NCBI GenBank assembly: GCA_029246105.1
Contig: JAQWOA010000006.1
Span: 1 to 64,000 of the forward strand
Origin: Woeseiaceae bacterium
GTDB taxonomy: Bacteria; Pseudomonadota; Gammaproteobacteria; Steroidobacterales; Woeseiaceae
Reading direction: 5' to 3'
Length of the DNA: 64,000 bases
Shown here: in pieces, positions 2,493 to 14,588 of the stretch
Layout: each line of letters opens with the position of its first letter
How positions within the stretch are numbered: the stretch's first letter is position 1
Translations under genes and position numbers: made by a program
The notes under the pieces: generated by a model
The model's database searches: none
Told to the model about the DNA's origin: nothing
The model's input: only the letters and a program-made list of their open reading frames with translations

Positions 2493-5255
2493 TCAATAGC
2501 CACTCTGCTTTGATTTGATGGCAGCCAACACGCGATCTGGGCTCGCCGGTAGATCGCGGATCACTGCGCCAGTTGCACGCCGGATGGCATTTAGAATTGC
2601 CGGCGCAGTACCGACAAGCACATGCTCACCTAAACCTTTAGCACCGTATGGACCATGTGGGTCTGTTTCTTCGATAAATAATGTTTCGATTTCTGGTACA
2701 TCACCAGCAGTAGGGATCAGGTAATCATGGAGATTATTAGTTTTTCCAGGTACAAATTTTTCCATTAATGCCATCCCAATGCCCTGCGCAACGCCGCCAT
2801 GAACTTGACCCTCAGCTAGTACAGGGTTTATGACTTTCCCAACATCATGGGCGGCAGTGACTTTTATGAGCTTGGTTGTTCCTAGCGCAGTATCTACAGA
2901 TAGTTCAACCATCTGTGCTCCGTAGCCAAATGAAGCATAAGGCTCTCCTTGACCATCCTTGTCGAGGGGCTGCGTTGGAGGATCATATGTTTCTTCGGCT
3001 GTCGCAATGAAGCCATTTTGATCAGCTGGCAAACTATCAAGCTGCAACTTATATGTACTATTTTCTGCAGAGGCAAGCAGTGTATTTCCATTGAGCTGTA
3101 AACGAGCTGATATTGGCGCATTGCAAATTTTGAGTAGTTTATTTCGTAAGACGTTCCCAGCCAGAAATGCTGCTTTGCCTGAAATAAACGTTTGCCTTGA
3201 TGCCGACGTTTTTCCGGCGTCTGCTGTTAAGTCAGTATCGCCATAAACTAAATCGAAACAGTCAATCGAAATACCTATAGCATCGGCGCAAATTTGGCTA
3301 ATAACCGTGTTTGATCCTTGACCAATATCGATCGCCCCTTGAAATAAAATGACACGCCCATCATTTCGCAATGCCACCCGTATAGTTGATGGGTTGGGTA
3401 ATGATGTATTGCCACATCCGTACCATAAGCCGGCAATGCCAACACCAAAACGCATCGGAGTGTTCTGGGCTGATTCGTTACGCATTTCAGCGTTACGAAT
3501 GGCTTGCTGCCATTGTGGTCGCAACGCTTCAAGACACGCAACAATACCAACGCCACTATCAAAGCGTTGTCCTGTTGCTGTTGGCAAACCGTTTACAAGC
3601 GCATTACGAACTCGAAATTCGAGTGGATCAATTTTCAATTTCTCAGCGAGGAGGTCAAACAGTGTTTCCTGTGCAACAGCAGATTGCGGTACACCGAACC
3701 CTCGAAAAGCACCTGATGGAGGGCAATGCGTATGTATTGCAGCAGACTCAGCGCGGTAGTTTTCAATACGATACGGCCCACACGCATGAATTGGCACACG
3801 ATTGGCAACCGTTGGCCCCCAGGATGCATAGGCGCCGGTATTAAATATACCGTCGAACGTCATTGCTACAATTTTGCCATCCTTGCTGGCGCCTATCCTA
3901 GACTGAATACTGGATGGATGGCGCTTCGTCGTTGATAGCATCGATTCGGTACGTGAATACACCATCTTTACTGGCTGTTTCAAATGCCACGCAGCTATCG
4001 CCACAAATGGCTGCAGCGACAGATCTAGTTTTGAGCCAAAACCTCCACCTACTGATGATGGAATGATTCGGACTTGGTCTTCCGAAATATTCATAATCTC
4101 GGCTAAGCTACTTCTATCCATGTATGGCGCCTGCGTGCAGGACCATACTTCAATTCGATCGCCAATTCGCTGCGCGAAGGCCGCTTCGGGTTCAATGTAA
4201 GCATGCTCAATAAATTCAGTTGTGAAAGCGCCCTCCACTACGACGTCGGCGGCTTCGAAACCGGATTGCACGTCACCGCTTTCTACATATCCACCGGTCA
4301 AGCGATTATTCGCACGCCCTTCATGTAGCTGTGGCGCACCTTCATCAGTAGCTTCATTTGCGGTAGTGACGTCCGCCAGCTTTTGCCACGTTATCGGCAG
4401 CTTCGATATATTTAGAGTAACGATGTCATCGGTAGTGCCAACGACAAGTGCTACTGCTTCACCCTCAAACCGTGTTTCGGATTCGGCCAAGACTGGCTGG
4501 TCAACAAATTCCGGAATCACACCAAAGCAATTTCGTCCTAGAACATCCTTGGCTGTGTATACGGCGACCACTTCATCCGTTTTGTTTACATACGCATCGA
4601 GATTCCCGAACGAAAAGGCGGCATGTGGATAAGGACTGCGAATTGCTATTGCATATAAAGCATCGTCTGGCCAGTCATCGGCTGCAAACAGGTCTGAACC
4701 AGCGACTTTTGGCGCTCCATCTAAACGGATGATCGGTTCACCAACTGAGCTTTTGTTCTCAGTAGAATGTGGTGCTGAGTGATTTTCTGGCACGTTCGCA
4801 TTGACGATGGCATGAATAATATTGCGATAACCGGTGCAACGGCAAAGTACTCCGCCAATAGCGTTTTCCGCTTGTTGTTCACTGGGATGCGGTATACGTC
4901 GTAATAATGCCTCAGCTGCAACTATCATGCCGGGCGTGCATATTCCACATTGAGCAGCGCCGTATCGTAGGAAGGATTTTTGCAAATTCCCTTTTGCAAC
5001 ACTGCACCCATTTTGCAAGCCTTCAACGGTTTCAATATTGCAACCATTAGCTTGTTGTAAGGCCATCATGCAGGCACAAATGGGCTTATTGTCGACTAAG
5101 ATTGTGCAGGCGCCACAGTCACCTGCATTGCAGCCAACTTTAGTGCCGGTAAGTCCAAGTTCTTCTCGTAATACTCGCGAAAATCGCGTGCCTGCTTCTG
5201 CGTCAACGCTGATCGATTCGCCGTTAAGCTTAAAATTGATCTTTGAGGCATTCAT
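2493..5255 (-). CDS. Xanthine dehydrogenase-family molybdenum hydroxylase: N-terminal 2x[2Fe-2S] subunit fused to molybdopterin subunit; putative nicotinate dehydrogenase
   Basis: GCNAGDCGACTILVDNKPICAC, QCGICTPGM and CRCTGYRNI [2Fe-2S] motifs, then a Moco domain with GGGFGSK, GAFRGFG and a GAKGLGEH active-site Glu region. Nicotinate assignment is from context. Confidence 0.85.
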   Translation of the reverse strand: MNASKINFKLNGESISVDAEAGTRFSRVLREELGLTGTKVGCNAGDCGACTILVDNKPICACMMALQQANGCNIETVEGLQNGCSVAKGNLQKSFLRYGAAQCGICTPGMIVAAEALLRRIPHPSEQQAENAIGGVLCRCTGYRNIIHAIVNANVPENHSAPHSTENKSSVGEPIIRLDGAPKVAGSDLFAADDWPDDALYAIAIRSPYPHAAFSFGNLDAYVNKTDEVVAVYTAKDVLGRNCFGVIPEFVDQPVLAESETRFEGEAVALVVGTTDDIVTLNISKLPITWQKLADVTTANEATDEGAPQLHEGRANNRLTGGYVESGDVQSGFEAADVVVEGAFTTEFIEHAYIEPEAAFAQRIGDRIEVWSCTQAPYMDRSSLAEIMNISEDQVRIIPSSVGGGFGSKLDLSLQPFVAIAAWHLKQPVKMVYSRTESMLSTTKRHPSSIQSRIGASKDGKIVAMTFDGIFNTGAYASWGPTVANRVPIHACGPYRIENYRAESAAIHTHCPPSGAFRGFGVPQSAVAQETLFDLLAEKLKIDPLEFRVRNALVNGLPTATGQRFDSGVGIVACLEALRPQWQQAIRNAEMRNESAQNTPMRFGVGIAGLWYGCGNTSLPNPSTIRVALRNDGRVILFQGAIDIGQGSNTVISQICADAIGISIDCFDLVYGDTDLTADAGKTSASRQTFISGKAAFLAGNVLRNKLLKICNAPISARLQLNGNTLLASAENSTYKLQLDSLPADQNGFIATAEETYDPPTQPLDKDGQGEPYASFGYGAQMVELSVDTALGTTKLIKVTAAHDVGKVINPVLAEGQVHGGVAQGIGMALMEKFVPGKTNNLHDYLIPTAGDVPEIETLFIEETDPHGPYGAKGLGEHVLVGTAPAILNAIRRATGAVIRDLPASPDRVLAAIKSKQSGY

Positions 5256-6100
5256 TTAAGGGCATCTACACATGAAAGAATCGCTCGTCGTACTAATTCT
5301 GCTGTGGCCTCTAATCGATACTGACCACTGGAGCGAATATCATCGATCGGCGATAGTGGTTCAAAGAATTTTGCCGCATGCGGTAGGCGACTCATTTGTT
5401 GAAGCTGGCATCCCTTCAGCTTGGCTTCCAGGTCACGTAAGCGACACGCGACCGCTGAACATGATCCAACGCTTATACTGATGTTTTCGATTGAGTTATC
5501 GCTGCTCGGCTCAAGTACCACTGCAACCATGGAAATAGAAATAACCAGATATTTTCGAGAGCCTAGTTTTAAGAATGAACTTACACTTCGTTCGCTAGAC
5601 TTAGGAACCAGCACTGCAGACATTAATTCTGTTTCAGTTAAAGCAGTTTGCCGTGGTCCAGTGATAAAGTCTTTCAAGCCTAAAATTCGTCGACCGTTAG
5701 TTGATGATAACTCCACGCTGGCATTCAATGCCATTAAGGGCGGCACACCATCTGCCGCAGGTGATGCATTACACAAATTGCCAGCAATTGTGCCAGCGTT
5801 CTGAATCTGGATTCCTCCCACTTCGCAGGCCGCTAATTTCAAACAATCAAACGATTTAGGTAAATTTGCAGCCATCACATCAGACCATGTTGAGGATGCT
5901 CCAATTCGCCAGTGATCTCCAACATCTTTAATGCCAACCAAATCTGGAATTGCTGTTACATCGAGAACATTGTCCAAACTATTGTGATCACCCAAGGCTG
6001 CATAGACATCAGTGCCACCGGCAAGCACTTGCCGAGGGCTTTGACCGAGGAGCATGAGTGCCTCATCGAGGTTGTCGGGACGTTCGTAACTTTGCCGCAC
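5252..6100 (-). CDS. FAD-binding subunit of molybdenum hydroxylase (CoxM/NdhF-like)
   Basis: LAGGTDVYAAL, GGIQIQNAGTIAGNLCNASPAADGVPPLMALNA; overlaps the upstream end of the Moco subunit gene. Confidence 0.9.
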   Translation of the reverse strand: MRQSYERPDNLDEALMLLGQSPRQVLAGGTDVYAALGDHNSLDNVLDVTAIPDLVGIKDVGDHWRIGASSTWSDVMAANLPKSFDCLKLAACEVGGIQIQNAGTIAGNLCNASPAADGVPPLMALNASVELSSTNGRRILGLKDFITGPRQTALTETELMSAVLVPKSSERSVSSFLKLGSRKYLVISISMVAVVLEPSSDNSIENISISVGSCSAVACRLRDLEAKLKGCQLQQMSRLPHAAKFFEPLSPIDDIRSSGQYRLEATAELVRRAILSCVDALK

Positions 6101-6110
6101 TATTTACCTT

Positions 6111-7304
6111 TTATTTTTCTAAACTCGCTAGCGTTTCAGCGGGGGGTGTATTTCGCGAGCGTTGACAGCGAACAACTCCATCAATAATAACCATACTGAT
6201 GCCGGGTAAATCACCTAGTGCAACACTATCAAGAAGCGTATCACCGGCAGAATGCTGTGCACGATCCATGATGACAAAATCAGCTACACGACCAATTTCA
6301 ATCAAGCCGCAATTAAGTTCTCTGATTCGGGCGGTATTGCCTGTCGCAAAACAGAACACAATCTCAGGCGCTACGTTGCCCATCGAACTAAGCATTGCAA
6401 TTAGCCGTAAAATGCCGAGTGGTTGAACCCCAGAACCCGCTGGTGAGTCTGTTCCTAGACTGATGCGCTCAGCCTGATCGAGTTCTATTGTCGTGCGCAT
6501 AGCATATAGACCAGCTACTTCATTACCGTTGTGTACAATCTCGACAGCTCGCGTACAGGACTCACAAAGGCATCGAATCTGATCAATCGGTAGTGCTGTG
6601 GGTCCACCATTTATGTGTCCGATGACATCGGCATCAGCTTCAAGAACAACATCCGCATCAATAAGACTAGAGCCTGGAATCGAGGGACCGCCAGTGTGGA
6701 TGGTGCTTTTAATGCCATATTTTCTCGCCCAGGCAACCATTTTTTTAGCTTCTTCACCATTTTTGACACTACCCAGTCCTACTTCACCGAGTAATTTTAC
6801 GCCAGCGTCTGCTAGTTCTTTGAAATCATGTTCCTCCATGCCCTGTTCGAGGATTGGAGCTCCAGCATGTACTTTGACACCGCCCGGTCTGTGTCTTGAA
6901 AAAGAGCGTTGTGCAGTAATGGCCAGTGCTTTCAGGCCAACAATATCTTTGGGGCGTCCGGGCAAATGGACTTCACCAGCTGAAATCATTGTCGTAACTC
7001 CGCCATTTAGATAGCTGTCAATCCAATCAATCTGGTTTTGCCGTGGTGTCCAGTCGCCGACCACAGGATGCACATGACTATCAATCAATCCAGGTGCAAC
7101 GCAGGTTCCGTTAGCGTTGACAACTCTGTCAGCATTCTCAGTATCAAGTTCTGAATAGCGACCAATATCAGTGATTACACCATCGACGACGATGATTGTA
7201 TCCGCATCCAAAATTGGTTGTGTCAGATCACCCGATAGTAATAATCCAATACCCCGAATTACAAGCTTGCCTTGTGGATTTGTTTGCCCTTGAAATAACT
7301 CCAC
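6111..7304 (-). CDS. ena: Enamidase-like amidohydrolase (1,4,5,6-tetrahydro-6-oxonicotinate hydrolase)
   Basis: Recalled similarity to E. barkeri enamidase along the whole length: GLIDSHVHPVVGDWTPRQ, GGVTTMISAGEVHLPGRPKD, IKSTIHTGGPSIPGSS, IGHINGGPTALP, and C-terminal GDLPGISMVIIDGVV..SRNTPPAE. Confidence 0.85.
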   Translation of the reverse strand: MELFQGQTNPQGKLVIRGIGLLLSGDLTQPILDADTIIVVDGVITDIGRYSELDTENADRVVNANGTCVAPGLIDSHVHPVVGDWTPRQNQIDWIDSYLNGGVTTMISAGEVHLPGRPKDIVGLKALAITAQRSFSRHRPGGVKVHAGAPILEQGMEEHDFKELADAGVKLLGEVGLGSVKNGEEAKKMVAWARKYGIKSTIHTGGPSIPGSSLIDADVVLEADADVIGHINGGPTALPIDQIRCLCESCTRAVEIVHNGNEVAGLYAMRTTIELDQAERISLGTDSPAGSGVQPLGILRLIAMLSSMGNVAPEIVFCFATGNTARIRELNCGLIEIGRVADFVIMDRAQHSAGDTLLDSVALGDLPGISMVIIDGVVRCQRSRNTPPAETLASLEK

Positions 7305-7332: not shown

Positions 7333-7917
7333 CTAGCGAAGCCCATCTTTTCCGATTGCATCCGCTTGCGTTAGTCCGCCAACGCGAGGAAGCGGTCGAC
7401 CGCTGTCCGTCACGGCAACCGCGACCAAAATTTCATTAGATCTAGGACCATCGTTTAGGCTTACTTCCATAGCATCAAAGTGGCTACGAACATGCGCAGC
7501 ATCTTTGTGCCCGAGTGGAATATCAATTGTTGTTCCAACTCCCCCCATTTTTTTTGACGATGGAATGAGTGCAGCACCTTGTTGAACAGCTGAACGCAAT
7601 GGCTTACCAAGGCGAGGATGCAGAATTGCCGCGGCATGTTCTAGCTCTCCATCAACACCAACGATAGCAGCTTTACCGAAGCTCTCAATTTCCGACGGCT
7701 CCACTCCCAATGCAGCAACAGCTCGACTACCGAGGAGGTCCCCTAGCTCTGCACCGATTCGCATCAAAGCCTCGAGGTCTTCGACAAATTTTCCTGCACA
7801 AGGATTCTCGATTACCGCGAACGCTGCTGCCTTTCTCGTCACTGGATTCACCACACAACCCATCTCTTTGCAGGTGTCCTCAACAACAACTAAAATCTTT
7901 CGTATATCCGCATTCAT
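7333..7917 (-). CDS. DUF1185 / AA_synth (PF06684) family protein, paralogue A
   Basis: FGKAAIVGVDGELEHAAAILHP...PSSKKMGGVGTTIDIPLGHKDAAHVRSHFD; overlaps the adjacent paralogue by 4 bp. Confidence 0.82.
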   Translation of the reverse strand: MNADIRKILVVVEDTCKEMGCVVNPVTRKAAAFAVIENPCAGKFVEDLEALMRIGAELGDLLGSRAVAALGVEPSEIESFGKAAIVGVDGELEHAAAILHPRLGKPLRSAVQQGAALIPSSKKMGGVGTTIDIPLGHKDAAHVRSHFDAMEVSLNDGPRSNEILVAVAVTDSGRPLPRVGGLTQADAIGKDGLR

Positions 7918-8495
7918 CGTAAACCGTCCTCTCCAATGATATTACTTGCCTGCAAACCACCCATTCGTGCGTGGATGCGAGAGCCGGTCGCCATAGCCAA
8001 GCAAAATACCAATTCGTCTGGTCTGGGCGCATCAGGTACTTGCAGCGGTAATGTATGGAAATGATTTCGTACATACGCAGCATTGGTATGCGCCAGTGGA
8101 ATGTCTATTGTAGCGCCGACCGGCCCAACTTTTTTTGTGGATGGAACAATAGCCCGTGTTTCGCCAAGTACTTGACGCATACCGTAACCACCTGGGGAAT
8201 GCCAGAGTGCACCATGCTCGAGTTCGCCATTAACACCTACAATGCAGCCTTTTCCATATGCCTCGATGTCGTCAGGGCCACAGTTCATCGCTTCTAATAA
8301 CTCATTCGCAAGTTGTAGACCCAGTGGCTCCAAATCTTTCATGGCAGGCTCTAGGATTTCGACATACTGGCCTGCGAAGGGGTTGCTTACTATTCCACAG
8401 ATTCCACCCAAAATTAATGGCTTATCTTTAGGTGGTCCGAATTCATGATTTGAACGATCTAGCGTAATGACGATTTTTCGCACATTAAAATTCAT
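7914..8495 (-). CDS. DUF1185 / AA_synth (PF06684) family protein, paralogue B
   Basis: YGKGCIVGVNGELEHGALWHSPGGYGMR...PSTKKVGPVGATIDIPLAHTNAAYVRNHF; clearly paralogous to the adjacent ORF. Confidence 0.82.
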   Translation of the reverse strand: MNFNVRKIVITLDRSNHEFGPPKDKPLILGGICGIVSNPFAGQYVEILEPAMKDLEPLGLQLANELLEAMNCGPDDIEAYGKGCIVGVNGELEHGALWHSPGGYGMRQVLGETRAIVPSTKKVGPVGATIDIPLAHTNAAYVRNHFHTLPLQVPDAPRPDELVFCLAMATGSRIHARMGGLQASNIIGEDGLR

Positions 8496-9409
8496 TATTT
8501 ATCAATTCCTTTGTATTCATATGGCCAACCTATCGTACGACTATGTCCCTGCAGGCTTATGAAAACACCGTAGAGCTCAGGTTCTTTTATCAAGGTTCGG
8601 GTGAATTTCGCTCCACGATCAAGAGCATTATCAATTGCTTGTTTTTGTAATGCTCCTACATTCATCGTGACCAGTCTTTCTCCAAGATCACTGTCAGGAT
8701 CAATGTCCAATGCTCGAGCTCGATCGACGCATTTAGCATCACAATCGACTTCATTTGCGATCAATGTTGCTACCGTATCAGCAATCGCCGCATTTTTTGC
8801 GAGAACAGTCACGGCATCAGCAATACCCAGAGACATTGAATGGCCATTCCAACCACTGGTCGCGATACCACATATACCATCCTCGCTTGTGATTTCCACT
8901 GATGCATTTAATTGTGCTGTTGAGAGGGAAGGTACAATACCAATATTCATTTTCTGGCCAGGCTCGAGGTGCAAAGCGATATCGCCACCATTATTAACAA
9001 AAACACTATCCAGCCCATTTACATTTTTCATTGCAGCCAGAACCTCATCCGCGACCGCGCCGGCTACAGCTGCCATGGGTGTGATGAAATAATCTCTATA
9101 TTGTCTGACAGTTGAAATCATATGTTGCGATGTAGCGTCATCTATCCTTCTATTATCTATAATGTACAGAGGTGATCGCAGTAGCGATAGGTTATCAACC
9201 AGTCCTTGTAGCATTCCTTCCATGCGTTGTGCTGCAAAGGCATAAGCATGCTGCACACTTTTAGCATCACCTATTGCTTTGATGACGAGGTTGATTGGTC
9301 CATGCTGTAAATGAAGACGATTACCGGACAGCATTGCTTTTTGCACTTGTCCAGATGGCCATGGTTGAAGCTGAGCATCAGGAATCCTGCAAATTGTGCT
9401 TGAATTCAT
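8495..9409 (-). CDS. UPF0280 family protein (ApbE-like superfamily)
   Basis: LQHGPINLVIKAIGDAKSVQHAYAFAAQRMEGML...ITPMAAVAGAVADEVL...VFVNNGGDIALHL...GIATSGWNGHSMSLGIADAVTVLA. Confidence 0.82.
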   Translation of the reverse strand: MNSSTICRIPDAQLQPWPSGQVQKAMLSGNRLHLQHGPINLVIKAIGDAKSVQHAYAFAAQRMEGMLQGLVDNLSLLRSPLYIIDNRRIDDATSQHMISTVRQYRDYFITPMAAVAGAVADEVLAAMKNVNGLDSVFVNNGGDIALHLEPGQKMNIGIVPSLSTAQLNASVEITSEDGICGIATSGWNGHSMSLGIADAVTVLAKNAAIADTVATLIANEVDCDAKCVDRARALDIDPDSDLGERLVTMNVGALQKQAIDNALDRGAKFTRTLIKEPELYGVFISLQGHSRTIGWPYEYKGIDK

Positions 9410-9416
9410 GAGCAGA

Positions 9417-10949
9417 TCACTTCAGCGGCCAAGGGTTCTTGGGATTCCAGCTGTTACTCTGCGCACTGTCGCCATAGTAGTCGCGGATTTCCTCCAATGA
9501 CTGAATGAAATCGACATGACCACCCATTGCAGTATACCGGTCTCTAGATAACGTAAATTCTATTGGCGCTACTATTGCCGGTGTCGGTACATAGCCAAAG
9601 GAATTTTCTGGCATACGTGTAACATCGACCATAATTGTGATGCCACCACCAGGCCACACATAGACCGGTGCACCACCCATGGTGACTCGTGTTAATGTCT
9701 CTTTGACAGATTGGGTTAAGCTTATTGGGTTCTCGGTGACGCCAGCGCGTAGTGATCCGCCAGCACCACCAACAAATAATACTGAGCATAGTGATGGTTC
9801 GCAGTTTTCTCGAATCCGGTCAACAACAATTTGTACAGCATCTGGCATCGCTGCCTTCACTGGCTGCAATTTTTCATCGAGAACGCAATAGATGCTTTCT
9901 TCACCCGTTGTAGTGGTCATCAATACCCGACTTCCCGAGCATGCAACATTATCATCGATTGATTCAATTATAGAAAATGGGTCATTGATGTCTGTGCCGC
10001 CCCATCCCTGACCAGGATTTGCAACGTTGAAATATCGACCGGGCGTTGAGCGGCGTCCGCGAATACGAATACCGGAGGGTTTCATTCCAAGACAACGCCC
10101 AGCCTGATGCTCTGATAGAACTCCAGTAATATGTTCGTCAATGACAATGACTTCATCTACATGGCCATGCCACTGCTCTGCGAATATGCCAATTGTTGCT
10201 GAGCCACAACCGACACGCATATGCTTTTCGGGGACACCATCAATAATGGGCGCATGTCCTGCTTGCACCACCATAGAGCAGCCTCCAGCAACGACAAGCT
10301 CAACTGGCTGACGATTGCACAGTGCCATAATGGCGTTGCAGGTTACCTTACCCTCTCGTTTGCTGCCGCCCGTGAGGTGATTAACTCCTCCAAGGGATAA
10401 CATTGGTGATCCATATTCGGTGGTCGTTACATGCCCAATGCGTTGCCCATCGCAAAGAACATCTGCTTGTTCGGCACCAAGGTGTTTATCTGTATCCAGT
10501 TTAATTTTCACGCCGCAATACGAAAAGATACCCTCACTGACCACTGTTACAGTTTCAACTTTGTCGTACTGTGTTGCTACAATAAATGGTGCTGGTTTGT
10601 AGTCGGGATAAGTTGTACCTGCACCGATGGCAGTAACGAATGTTCCTTGTTGAATCAGATTGCCGTCCCATTCGCTCGAGGAGTCTACAAACGGGACAAC
10701 CTCGCTATCGGAATCAAGTGAGTTTTCGAGAAGCACCAGCGGATCAACACGCGCGAGCTCACCTTTAACGTTGGCATAGCGCCCACAAGCTCCAGACCGC
10801 TCTGGTCTGATCCGGCAAAGTACTGGGCAGGCATCACAACGCACTATGCCATCTTTTTCACGAGCGCCGAAGCGTTCGGTCATACTGGGAATACCAGTTG
10901 GTTTGCTCGACTTCTTGTCGGCGCTGGGATTATTCTTTTCAGTCGCCAT
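9417..10949 (-). CDS. hnr: 6-hydroxynicotinate reductase (Fe-S flavoenzyme)
   Basis: Cys motif RCDACPVLCRIRPERSGACGRYANVKGELARVDPLVLLENSL; Hnr-like full length. Start set to ATG at 10949 (MATEKNNPSADKK) rather than the ORF-track start at 11111. Confidence 0.85.
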   Translation of the reverse strand: MATEKNNPSADKKSSKPTGIPSMTERFGAREKDGIVRCDACPVLCRIRPERSGACGRYANVKGELARVDPLVLLENSLDSDSEVVPFVDSSSEWDGNLIQQGTFVTAIGAGTTYPDYKPAPFIVATQYDKVETVTVVSEGIFSYCGVKIKLDTDKHLGAEQADVLCDGQRIGHVTTTEYGSPMLSLGGVNHLTGGSKREGKVTCNAIMALCNRQPVELVVAGGCSMVVQAGHAPIIDGVPEKHMRVGCGSATIGIFAEQWHGHVDEVIVIDEHITGVLSEHQAGRCLGMKPSGIRIRGRRSTPGRYFNVANPGQGWGGTDINDPFSIIESIDDNVACSGSRVLMTTTTGEESIYCVLDEKLQPVKAAMPDAVQIVVDRIRENCEPSLCSVLFVGGAGGSLRAGVTENPISLTQSVKETLTRVTMGGAPVYVWPGGGITIMVDVTRMPENSFGYVPTPAIVAPIEFTLSRDRYTAMGGHVDFIQSLEEIRDYYGDSAQSNSWNPKNPWPLK

Positions 10950-11089
10950 TACGGCCTCATAGGCTGAATTATTTATAAGTATACATATAAAAAAAACAAA
11001 CATGCTAGTACAATACGGTACGGTAATCAGCCATTTCCTCAGATATTCTGGAAAAGTACTGTTCAGTTGACATACTGCAGGTACATATA

Positions 11090-11401
11090 TTGGAATACAT
11101 AGGCACATCAATGCCTGATAGGCTTAAAGATGAATCCAAAATCGAGACATTAACCCGTATGAATTTCAAGTCTAATAAACATCAACATCGTTCATTCTGG
11201 TGGCGTGTTTGCTGCGGTATCGCGATAGCGCTCTCTGCCATAACTTTTACACCACTTGTCATCGGTGATCATGCATCTCGTATTTTTCATCTTCCTTACT
11301 TGTTAGCGGTTGGCTTAATTCTTGCGATCGCGTTTATCGCAATAACAATTGCTGGCACCTTCTTTTATCCAAAATCTCTTGATCGTGGCGACAAAAAGTG
11401 A
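11090..11401 (+). CDS. Small membrane protein (two predicted TM helices), probable partner of downstream symporter (DUF3311-like)
   Basis: Hydrophobic segments WWRVCCGIAIALSAITFTPLVI and LPYLLAVGLILAIAFIAITIAGTFFY; stop overlaps the GTG start of the next gene. Start could also be 11111 or 11159. Confidence 0.6.
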   Translation: MEYIGTSMPDRLKDESKIETLTRMNFKSNKHQHRSFWWRVCCGIAIALSAITFTPLVIGDHASRIFHLPYLLAVGLILAIAFIAITIAGTFFYPKSLDRGDKK

Positions 11402-12816
11402 GTGGGTGGATATTAGGGATTGGCACTGTATATCTTTGTATGTTGGTTACTGCTGCACTTCGCGCTCGCAAATCAAACCATTCTGACAATGATTTTCTCT
11501 TAGCTGGATCAAGTCTTGGATCGCTTGTTGGATGCTTAACGGTCGCCGCTACACTATTTAGCACATTCACGTTGATGGGTATGCCAGATCTGTTTCGTAA
11601 TCATGGCATTGGCGCCTGGATTTTTCTTGGTGTTTCTGACTGCGCACTAGCATTCGTTGCTTTGTGGTTCGGTATTAATATTCGCCGCCGAATTTCGGCG
11701 GATAACTTCAATGGATTTTCTGATTGGTTGGGACGAGCATACCGTGGCCGCCATGCGACGTATGTCTACTTGTTTGGCATTTTTGTTTTCCTGATCCCCT
11801 ATGTTGCGATTCAGATAAAAGGAGTTTCATTATTTTTGAATTCGATAATGCCGGGTGTTATGCCAAGTTGGGCCTGGTCAGTTTCAATAGTCAGTGTGAT
11901 TCTTGCTTATAGTGAATTAGGTGGCCTCAAAGCCATAATTTTTGCAGATGCTGTTCAAGGTCTGGTGTTGTTTGGTGCGACTATTGTTATTGCAATAAGT
12001 TGTGTGGCCTATTTTGGTGGTATTGGACCCATGTTTGATTCGATTGAATCGACTTCGCCGGCACTCTTATCAACCCCTGGTCCATCTGGGTTATTCACCT
12101 ATCAATTTCTCATAGCTTCATTTTTGGCCATCGCAATGATTCCGGTGACACAGCCACAAATGAGTACTCGCTTGATTATTATGCGTGATAGTTCGTCGCT
12201 TGCTCGAATGGCCGTATTACTTGCTATATTTTCTTTCGTACTCGTACTCGCAACATTGCCGATTGGTCTTTATGGCGCTGCGCTCTACCCAACTAGTGCG
12301 ACGGGGGAATTCATAGCGCAAGTCCTGGTATACGATCAATCACCGATTGTCGCTGCTGTGGTTGTAGTTGGACTGATTGCAGCTGCCATCTCAACGGCAG
12401 ACTCGCAACTGTTTGCGCTAGGGAATGAGTTACGTTCAGGTGTATCCAAACCACAATATCAATCATTGAGATTAATGCGTAGTGCAATTGTGATATTTGC
12501 GCTGTCGGCACTGGTGGTTTCATTAGTGAGCAATACACATATCGTTTTATTAGCACGAACCAGTTTTGCTGGATCAGCATTGCTCGCACCCATGATATTG
12601 TCAGCTGTTTTCTTTCCAAAGCAATTGCATCGCGCTATTCCGTTGTTGGTTGGCTTGTGTTTAATTCTATTTCTCGCATCCATTTTTGGTTTGATAGGTG
12701 ATACTTTTTGGGGGCTGCGTATGGATCTTGTGATGTTTATAGCGGTTACGTTTGGCACCGCAATAATTTTGATGTTCAAAAATCACTATTTGCCTGATGA
12801 GCGAAAATCTTCATAA
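11398..12816 (+). CDS. Sodium:solute symporter (SSS) family transporter, putative nicotinate uptake
   Basis: DNDFLLAGSSLGSLVGCLTVAATLFSTFTLMGMPDLFRNHG..., SELGGLKAIIFADAVQGLVLF, AAAISTADSQLFALGNE; substrate inferred from context. Confidence 0.8.
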   Translation: MSGWILGIGTVYLCMLVTAALRARKSNHSDNDFLLAGSSLGSLVGCLTVAATLFSTFTLMGMPDLFRNHGIGAWIFLGVSDCALAFVALWFGINIRRRISADNFNGFSDWLGRAYRGRHATYVYLFGIFVFLIPYVAIQIKGVSLFLNSIMPGVMPSWAWSVSIVSVILAYSELGGLKAIIFADAVQGLVLFGATIVIAISCVAYFGGIGPMFDSIESTSPALLSTPGPSGLFTYQFLIASFLAIAMIPVTQPQMSTRLIIMRDSSSLARMAVLLAIFSFVLVLATLPIGLYGAALYPTSATGEFIAQVLVYDQSPIVAAVVVVGLIAAAISTADSQLFALGNELRSGVSKPQYQSLRLMRSAIVIFALSALVVSLVSNTHIVLLARTSFAGSALLAPMILSAVFFPKQLHRAIPLLVGLCLILFLASIFGLIGDTFWGLRMDLVMFIAVTFGTAIILMFKNHYLPDERKSS

Positions 12817-12833: not shown

Positions 12834-13319
12834 TTAGGTTAATCGTGCTAGTAATCGTAAAAAAATCTTTTGTTCATTCATAGTCAATGGCAGAAGTGTT
12901 TCTTTAGATACCTGGTGAGCTGCAGTTTCTAGCGACTCAATTAACTCGAGTCCTTTGGTAGTTAATGTGAGTACAGATTTTCGTTTATCAATCGGATCAG
13001 TCGTTTTTTGGATAAATTGACGTTGAACTAGGCGATTCACAATACCCATAATTGTCGCGGGATCCGTATGGTTAAGTCGACCAAGTAGGTTTTGAGATAC
13101 GCGACCTTGATCACGAATTTTCACTAATGAAGTAAATTGCATTGGGGTCAGTCCGCTATCGATAAAGAGTGTCTGGAAAATACCACTTGATCGTTGATGG
13201 GCGCGCCGTAGAAGAAATCCAGCTTGCTTCTCTACTATGTACAACTGATGCTCCTCCTTTAAAGATAGCGATGGCCTCTCGTCACTGTTTTTTTTATTAA
13301 TTGCTATAGATTTGTCCAT
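12834..13319 (-). CDS. MarR family transcriptional regulator
   Basis: LTPMQFTSLVKIRDQGRVSQNLLGRLNHTDPATIMGIVNRLVQRQFIQKTTDPIDKRKSVLTLTTKG winged-helix signature. Confidence 0.9.
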   Translation of the reverse strand: MDKSIAINKKNSDERPSLSLKEEHQLYIVEKQAGFLLRRAHQRSSGIFQTLFIDSGLTPMQFTSLVKIRDQGRVSQNLLGRLNHTDPATIMGIVNRLVQRQFIQKTTDPIDKRKSVLTLTTKGLELIESLETAAHQVSKETLLPLTMNEQKIFLRLLARLT

Positions 13320-13321
13320 TG

Positions 13322-13663
13322 CTAGTCAGTATCGCCGGGCTCTTCACTAAAGTAACGCTCAAACTTATTCTCTTCATTTCGAAATTCATCGGCATCCACC
13401 GGCGATACTCCTTTTCGCGTGATATTTGGCCACATTTCAGAGTATTTCGTATTCACTTCCAGCCAAAATTGGTCCGGCGTATCTTCATCATCAGGCTTGA
13501 TCGCTTCAACTGGGCATTCGGGCTCACAGACGCCACAGTCAATACATTCATCTGGATGAATGACCAAAAAGTTTTCGCCCTCGTAAAAACAATCAACCGG
13601 GCATACCTCCACACAATCCATTAATTTGCACTTCACGCATGGATCAGTAACGATAAAAGTCAC
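13322..13663 (-). CDS. fdxA: 7Fe/8Fe-type ferredoxin
   Basis: [55 protein letters not shown]. Confidence 0.95.
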
Positions 13664-13751: not shown

Positions 13752-14588
13752 TCAGCCGACGAAAGCCCGTTCAACTACAAAACTTCCTGGGGCAGAATTA
13801 CTACCTTCTTGGAGTCCATGCTCTTTGAGCATGGAAGCCATATCTTTGTTAAACGCCATTGAGCCGCAAACCATTACTCTGGCAGTTAGTGGGTTAAATC
13901 GATTTCCGATCAATCCAAGGTCTTTAGCGAAATCACCAAGCTGTATACGGTCTGTAATTCTGCCTTGTGTTCTGAATTCACCACGCGTAACCGTTGGATA
14001 GTAAGTAAATCGATCTCGCAATAACTCTCCAAAGATCTCATCAGCATGGATTTGCTCTTCCAAAAATTCACGGTAGGCAAGTTCCTGTTCTTCCCTGACG
14101 GTATGCGTGAGAATGATTTCATCAAATTTTTCATGAGTTTCAGGATCACGTAAAACGGAAAGGAAAGGAGCCAAGCCTGTGCCAGTTCCGATCATAAATA
14201 GACGTTGACCAGACTTAAGCGCATCTGTAACCAATGTGCCGGTTGGTTTTTTGTTTAGGAACAGGTAATCACCAACTTTTAAATGCTGTAAGCGGGACGT
14301 CAGAGGTCCTTCTGGAACTTTAATTGAGAAAAATTCGAGGTGTTCTTCCCAATTGGGACTAACGATGGAATAAGCTCTTAATAGAGGACGATTGCCATCT
14401 TCAAGCCCGATCATCACAAACTCACCAGAGCGAAAGCGAAAACTATCCGGGCGCTCGATGCGAAAACTAAACAAACTATCTGTCCAATGATGCACCCAGG
14501 TTACTCGCTGTAGGAAAAGCTTTTTTGCTTCAGCTATAGCCTGCAAATCTATTAATGTTGAAGATTCTTTGGGTTTTTCTTGACTCAT
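13752..14588 (-). CDS. fpr: Ferredoxin-NADP+ reductase
   Basis: RPLLRAYSIVSPNWEEHLEFFSIKVPEGPLTSRLQ...MIGTGTGLAPFLSVLRDPETHEKFDEIILTHTVREEQELAY...CGSMAFNKDM...FVVERAFVG. Confidence 0.95.
   Translation of the reverse strand: MSQEKPKESSTLIDLQAIAEAKKLFLQRVTWVHHWTDSLFSFRIERPDSFRFRSGEFVMIGLEDGNRPLLRAYSIVSPNWEEHLEFFSIKVPEGPLTSRLQHLKVGDYLFLNKKPTGTLVTDALKSGQRLFMIGTGTGLAPFLSVLRDPETHEKFDEIILTHTVREEQELAYREFLEEQIHADEIFGELLRDRFTYYPTVTRGEFRTQGRITDRIQLGDFAKDLGLIGNRFNPLTARVMVCGSMAFNKDMASMLKEHGLQEGSNSAPGSFVVERAFVG

Follow-up and report, generated by a model that had tools for sequence, protein, structure and literature searches.

The two tandem DUF1185 genes of the window (the whole stretch of 64,000 nucleotides analysed here) represent, by their sequences, two old and separate clades of one protein family, and one of these, clade A, follows the ring-opening enamidase of nicotinate degradation from genome to genome. 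With somewhat less than even confidence, we propose that DUF1185 proteins accelerate the conversion of an enamine or enol to the aldehyde after ring opening, with A working alongside enamidase and B serving the proteobacterial or HyuA/HyuB version of the pathway. Membership of the family, the clade split, the positions in operons, the co-occurrence and the conserved residues were all read from the sequences.

The nicotinate operon and its DUF1185 pair

Read 5' to 3' on the minus strand, the operon encodes 6-hydroxynicotinate reductase (Hnr, 9417..11111; 57-64% identity to plasmid proteins, many annotated 6-hydroxynicotinate reductase), a weakly ApbE-like UPF0280 protein, DUF1185-B (7914..8495), DUF1185-A (7333..7917), the enamidase that hydrolyses 1,4,5,6-tetrahydro-6-oxonicotinate (6111..7304; 48% identity over the full length to the Eubacterium barkeri enamidase 2VUN, E=2e-114), and a nicotinate hydroxylase of the xanthine-dehydrogenase family, as an FAD subunit (5252..6100; PF00941 E=1e-37) and a fusion of the [2Fe-2S] and molybdopterin subunits (2493..5255; PF02738, PF20256, PF01799). 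A xanthine-dehydrogenase-type hydroxylase, Hnr and a ring-opening enzyme thus stand together, the gene content of a reductive (THON) nicotinate cluster. The first-pass annotation had rightly placed the pair within a nicotinate operon, between enamidase downstream and UPF0280 upstream. No further PF06684 gene was found in the source genome, a 1.35-Mb assembly that is 88% complete.

A divergent sodium:solute symporter gene (11398..12816, plus strand; PF00474 E=3e-14) could possibly serve in nicotinate uptake. Beyond it, again on the minus strand, lie genes for a MarR-type regulator (12834..13319; PF01047), homologues of which recur beside such clusters, a ferredoxin-like protein (13322..13663) that shows cysteine motifs, recurs in related loci and is a candidate electron carrier for the reductase, and a ferredoxin-NADP reductase-like protein (13752..14588) homologous to the ferredoxin--NADP reductase adjoining Hnr in Sagittula and Comamonadaceae plasmids.

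The UPF0280 protein (8495..9409, minus strand; NF003322 above its cut-off, PF02424 ApbE E=3e-4 and below cut-off, 2O34 E=3e-9) is a recurrent neighbour of Hnr in aerobes and anaerobes. It is a candidate flavin transferase for Hnr and may attach its flavin, which in the E. barkeri enzyme is covalently bound. Hnr lacks the motif known for targets of ApbE, D..[ST]GA[ST], so a flavin transferase, if real, would use another site. In an alignment of 100 homologues of Hnr, conservation is absent ahead of the CxxCP region and begins at about residue 90; the TTG at 11111, listed first among the starts, probably lies too far upstream, and initiation near 10952 or 10949 agrees better with the conserved part.

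Two divergent paralogues of about 194 aa, with shared motifs and a 4-bp overlap, had been described in the first pass, and this description holds. A (194 aa) and B (193 aa) are 39% identical across their full length (E=1e-47), and positions 7914-7917 take in both the stop of B and the start of A. Both belong to PF06684 (AA_synth, former DUF1185), with 238.6 bits for A (E=3.7e-71) and 212.4 bits for B (E=4.3e-63) against a Pfam cut-off of 27. Of the family's two crystal structures, 2QTP is nearest to A (E=1e-81) and 3BYQ to B (E=1e-53), and AlphaFold models of A and B (mean pLDDT 89.8 and 92.3) match 3BYQ with TM-scores of 0.91 and 0.93. The family is characterised in its structure and not in its biochemistry.

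Both window proteins keep R7, E90, E92, H93, H98, R106, R142, H144, R172 and R176 (3BYQ numbering). Across all clades, R7, E90, E92, H93, R106, R142, R172 and R176 are kept, and H144 and H98 occur in at least 95% of sequences; the interface residues E90, E92, H93, R172 and R176 are found in nearly every relative. BB2672 and SPO0826 are both hexameric in solution, and the conserved Glu, His and Arg residues of the family sit in a cavity at the subunit interface (PMC2954203). Among the matches listed, a fold search with both models gave nothing informative beyond 3BYQ and 2QTP. The structure 5zy9 was discarded as a fold analogue (TM 0.24 and rmsd 10, despite E=5e-4), as was an identity with chorismate mutase (AroH; no Pfam match, Foldseek 1fnk at a non-significant E=0.19) or with the enamine/imine deaminase RidA (no Pfam match, no RidA among the best 50 Foldseek matches per model); any likeness to RidA would be chemical only. 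No convincing case of DUF1185 fused with a hydrolase or a dehydrogenase appeared in the extensions examined.

Two clades and the ring openers they accompany

Plasmid records, contigs and whole genomes supplied 220 DUF1185 genes; with two PDB entries added, 222 sequences went into a FastTree phylogeny without an outgroup. Gene calls were scored on homology, not by a trained gene finder; calling by longest ORF had let antisense ORFs displace many DUF1185 genes. Clade A (n=100, support 0.92), that of window A, comprises 60 sequences of the proteobacterial group, 2QTP/SPO0826 among them, and 40 that come from anaerobes, actinobacteria and archaea. Clade B (n=71, support 1.0), that of window B, takes in 3BYQ/BB2672 as well, along with loci similar to the hydroxycoumarin hcd cluster, and the remaining 51 sequences are mostly trigonelline-like. 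Lys121 marks the nicotinate clades, in 98/100 A sequences and most of B.

Among 398 Pseudomonadota genomes sampled evenly, PF06684 is present in 75, about a fifth, and Hnr in 39 (the window's own counted), of which 38 carry DUF1185. The distribution of clade A was assessed on whole genomes of this draw, with two extra genomes and without the window's own, chosen by PF06684 and not by enamidase. Every one of the 25 genomes with both Hnr and enamidase has clade A, against 1 of the 14 with Hnr but no enamidase (Fisher p=2e-9). A single genus supplies 11 of the 25 enamidase genomes, and a genus-level test was therefore added: 12/12 genera with enamidase carry A versus 1/8 without (p=1e-4). The link may in part reflect joint gene transfer. 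An action around the enamidase product, as first suggested, is on this distribution the most likely one.

Clade B is present in all 14 genomes that have Hnr without enamidase. So is a HyuA homologue (60-100% identity to a query from genome G320, the next best matches reaching at most 46%), whereas just 2 of the 25 genomes with enamidase have it; among NCBIfam models it matches caprolactamase alpha best, at E=3e-151 but below that model's cut-off. This constant presence suggests that an ATP-dependent lactamase pair, HyuA/HyuB, probably replaces enamidase as ring opener. Caprolactamase-like HyuA/HyuB pairs were seen in or near Hnr clusters without enamidase at L200:10363-14149(-), L202, L221, L013, L179 and L260. 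DUF1185 is absent from one HyuA-type cluster (G395, L260).

Where a locus holds both clades, B and A are adjacent in that order in 37 of 39 cases, with an exact 4-bp overlap in 25 of 39, an arrangement far beyond chance; in L066 and L089, A and B lie kilobases apart. Because the two genes overlap, their translational coupling is likely, and this half of the earlier idea of a coupled, possibly heteromeric enzyme stands. An obligate heteromer is unlikely, given that A-only genomes (11 of one genus, Belnapia, Plastoroseomonas and anaerobes) and B-only genomes exist; all conserved residues are moreover present in each protein. A heteromer is possible in organisms that have both. We give little credence to the stricter form of this idea, in which the sole active complex, where both are present, would be a hexamer of A and B subunits together with a common active site. 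The strict B-A order with its frequent overlap fits such a complex, as do the conserved interface salt bridges of the family's hexamers (PMC2954203) and the disordered C-terminal interface region in the crystal of SPO0826, an A-clade protein. Yet each clade occurs naturally without the other, L066 and L089 keep the genes apart, and SPO0826 is hexameric alone in solution (PMC2954203). The His174-to-Leu change of proteobacterial A was rejected as a sign of a mixed active site, since A-only genomes have the same change.

A scan for enamidase gave about 45 anaerobe-type loci, picked by that enzyme and excluded from the Pseudomonadota statistics. Nearly all have a single A-clade DUF1185, mostly directly adjoining UPF0280, enamidase or a 3-hydroxyisobutyrate-dehydrogenase-like gene, which is likely the 2-formylglutarate reductase. 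Most of the whole anaerobe genomes checked contain exactly one DUF1185 copy, and none of 40 anaerobe, actinobacterial and archaeal loci has a B-clade gene. The Acetobacterium bakii locus also encodes B12-binding, PrpF-like, aconitase-like and PrpB-like proteins, which we take to match the E. barkeri route described by Alhapel in 2006; that route reportedly keeps all carbons of 2-formylglutarate. Since A lies in operons of a carbon-keeping route, clade A should be neither a decarboxylase nor a deformylase, and the decarboxylation or deformylation first envisaged for it is not supported. The other roles suggested in the first pass, isomerisation (or tautomerisation) and the handling of the ring-opened intermediate, agree with the explanation favoured below. 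Our own initial hypothesis, that DUF1185 is the 2-formylglutarate decarboxylase, predicted its absence from anaerobic clusters; the scan gave the opposite, and it was dropped for A.

Clade B could then be the missing decarboxylase, forming glutarate semialdehyde, while A would perform the step common with anaerobes. This is improbable: beta-aldehydo acids can lose CO2 unaided, the 11 genomes of one genus, Belnapia and Plastoroseomonas combine Hnr, enamidase and A without B, and A and B have all family-wide residues in common, which makes different reaction types less likely. Such an assignment would nevertheless suit the lack of B in the 40 loci named above, where the aldehyde is presumably reduced, the constancy of B in the enamidase-less Hnr genomes, and the Azorhizobium route, which goes via glutarate and must lose CO2 (PMC3511419).

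Other lineages show further combinations. The archaeal enamidase cluster L047 (Archaeoglobi) has Hnr, enamidase and UPF0280, in a genome from which DUF1185 is absent; in the archaeal L063 (Hecatellales), enamidase is followed by DUF1185. Actinobacterial loci L064, L065 and L046 (one labelled Acidimicrobiia) have xanthine-dehydrogenase subunits, enamidase and DUF1185, and L064 and L046 also Hnr, that of L064 being close to the proteobacterial kind (637 bits). In L068, L092, L173 and L014, enamidase and/or DUF1185 stand with nucleoside ABC transporters, nucleoside hydrolases and isochorismatase-family (nicotinamidase-like) genes, which looks like the use of nicotinamide riboside as a growth substrate. 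At two loci in genomes without Hnr (L230:4783-8095 and L241:4080-5907), DUF1185 is directly followed by a divergent enamidase-like gene, an association that also counts in favour of the step proposed below; these loci possibly serve another pyridine pathway. At L230 the enamidase-like gene is in turn followed by one resembling a flavin monooxygenase.

A candidate step for DUF1185

In the third clade, DUF1185 is followed by an a/b hydrolase in 30 of 51 cases, mostly in trigonelline-type loci with flavin reductase, LLM monooxygenase and aldehyde dehydrogenase, and genomes with only this clade have no Hnr. The trigonelline enzyme TgnD is said, after Perchat's work of 2018, to hydrolyse an enamide to an enamine/2-formyl acid. 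The chemistry common to trigonelline and to nicotinate degradation, with both ring openers and both fates, is enamide hydrolysis to the enamine or enol of a 2-formyl dicarboxylate.

In the proposed scheme, nicotinate would be converted through 6-hydroxynicotinate to 1,4,5,6-tetrahydro-6-oxonicotinate, followed by ring opening. DUF1185 would act after hydrolysis of the enamide or lactam bond, A and B most likely each as its own hexamer, and would make the free aldehyde, 2-formylglutarate, from 2-(aminomethylene)- or 2-(hydroxymethylene)glutarate; this would take a proton transfer and, for the enamine, the addition of water as well. The same conversion could go slowly without an enzyme, which would account for the rare clusters devoid of DUF1185 (G395/L260, L047). 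A would be the partner of enamidase, and B the version of the proteobacterial pathway, the one retained when the caprolactamase-like HyuA/HyuB opens the lactam. We infer the reaction, its substrate and this division of work from the gene associations; the carbon-keeping anaerobe operons with A argue against loss of CO2 or formate as the common step.

Several points weigh against this scheme. The enamidase of E. barkeri is reported to be bifunctional, combining ring-opening hydrolysis with deamination (PMC9304392), so enamidase itself may suffice and the enamine/enol step may need no helper. Enamine hydrolysis by A would predict A with HyuA/HyuB instead of enamidase, and B would have to take that role. 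The hydroxycoumarin (hcd) context is free of nitrogen, so enamine chemistry cannot be the function of the whole family. An extension to a widespread, so far unrecognised class of enol/enamine-to-aldehyde catalysts for several N-heterocycle pathways (nicotinate, trigonelline and vitamin-B6-like), in which clade A would go with enamidase and clade B with the ATP-dependent HyuA/HyuB that takes its place in aerobic bacteria, is somewhat more doubtful still.

TgnF, a DUF1185 homologue, stimulates succinate-semialdehyde oxidation, the TgnE step, according to a second-hand account in PMC7913881, and attempts to detect an effect of HcdD failed (PMC7913881). For 4-hydroxypyridine, the hydrolysis of a comparable enamine is described as unresolved (PMC7356986). 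A locus resembling the hcd cluster (L234:5719-12161) encodes FMN reductase-like, cupin-like, oxidoreductase, DUF1185, FAH, VOC and MhpA-like proteins.

A different role, as activator or partner of a neighbouring hydrolase in the opening of a lactam, lactone or enamide, is rather unlikely. The neighbours in loci of the nicotinate and trigonelline types are indeed hydrolases that open rings or cleave enamides, and in the hcd pathway, where HcdD is co-induced, the dihydrocoumarin lactone hydrolase is unassigned (PMC7913881). However, the E. barkeri enamidase is described as performing both the opening of the ring and the deamination itself (PMC9304392), and there is no relationship between HyuA, enamidase and the a/b hydrolase, which makes a single partner for all of them unlikely. 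A similarly small chance attaches to an earlier role of DUF1185, on the product of the reductase, or to a binding or regulatory function without catalysis. B directly follows UPF0280 in 37 of 56 cases, UPF0280 itself adjoining Hnr, and almost all Hnr genomes have DUF1185; but the genomes with only the trigonelline-type clade lack Hnr, and the interface cavity with its conserved Glu, His and Arg looks catalytic (PMC2954203).

Comparison with known systems

The 'amino acid synthesis' name of PF06684 rests on thin evidence, and its transporter-like neighbours look more like genes of nicotinate uptake than of amino-acid metabolism. Clades tied to named ring-opening enzymes lead to specific, testable substrates and would give PF06684 a function. 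The nicotinate cluster as such is already known; the function of DUF1185, the A/B split and the exchange of ring opener appear to be unreported as far as we searched. For several proteobacteria the data also point to nicotinate degradation through an ATP-dependent lactamase, a route of which no description was found in the literature searched.

TgnF of trigonelline degradation in Acinetobacter baylyi is a homologue acting in a pyridine-carboxylate pathway, with matching clusters in our survey (L020). It differs in belonging to another clade and in having neither Hnr nor enamidase beside it, its pathway presumably proceeding by oxidative ring cleavage with an a/b hydrolase. SPO0826 (2QTP) of Ruegeria pomeroyi is, like window A, a member of clade A and the nearest solved relative of the downstream paralogue, and it adjoins branched-chain-amino-acid-type ABC transporter genes (PMC2954203), as do many of the nicotinate clusters surveyed. 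Unlike our pair, it was obtained as a structural-genomics structure and tentatively tied to amino-acid metabolism; nicotinate was not invoked (PMC2954203). BB2672 (3BYQ) of Bordetella bronchiseptica, the nearest solved relative of B (44% in structural alignment), resembles it in fold and conserved residues; however, it groups with FAH/VOC/oxidoreductase (hydroxycoumarin-like) loci and not with nicotinate, and is without the Lys121 of the nicotinate clades.

The nicotinate cluster of Azorhizobium caulinodans and Bradyrhizobiaceae SG-6C follows the same pathway via tetrahydro-oxonicotinate, whereas the part of that account available to us proposes neither a function for DUF1185 nor an A/B split (PMC3511419). 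The fermentation of E. barkeri uses an Hnr and an enamidase homologous to those of the window, and a close relative, Acetobacterium bakii (83% in enamidase), has a single DUF1185 of clade A adjoining enamidase. Such anaerobes differ from the window in having a single DUF1185 copy and no B, and in the anaerobic fate of 2-formylglutarate, which is reduced.
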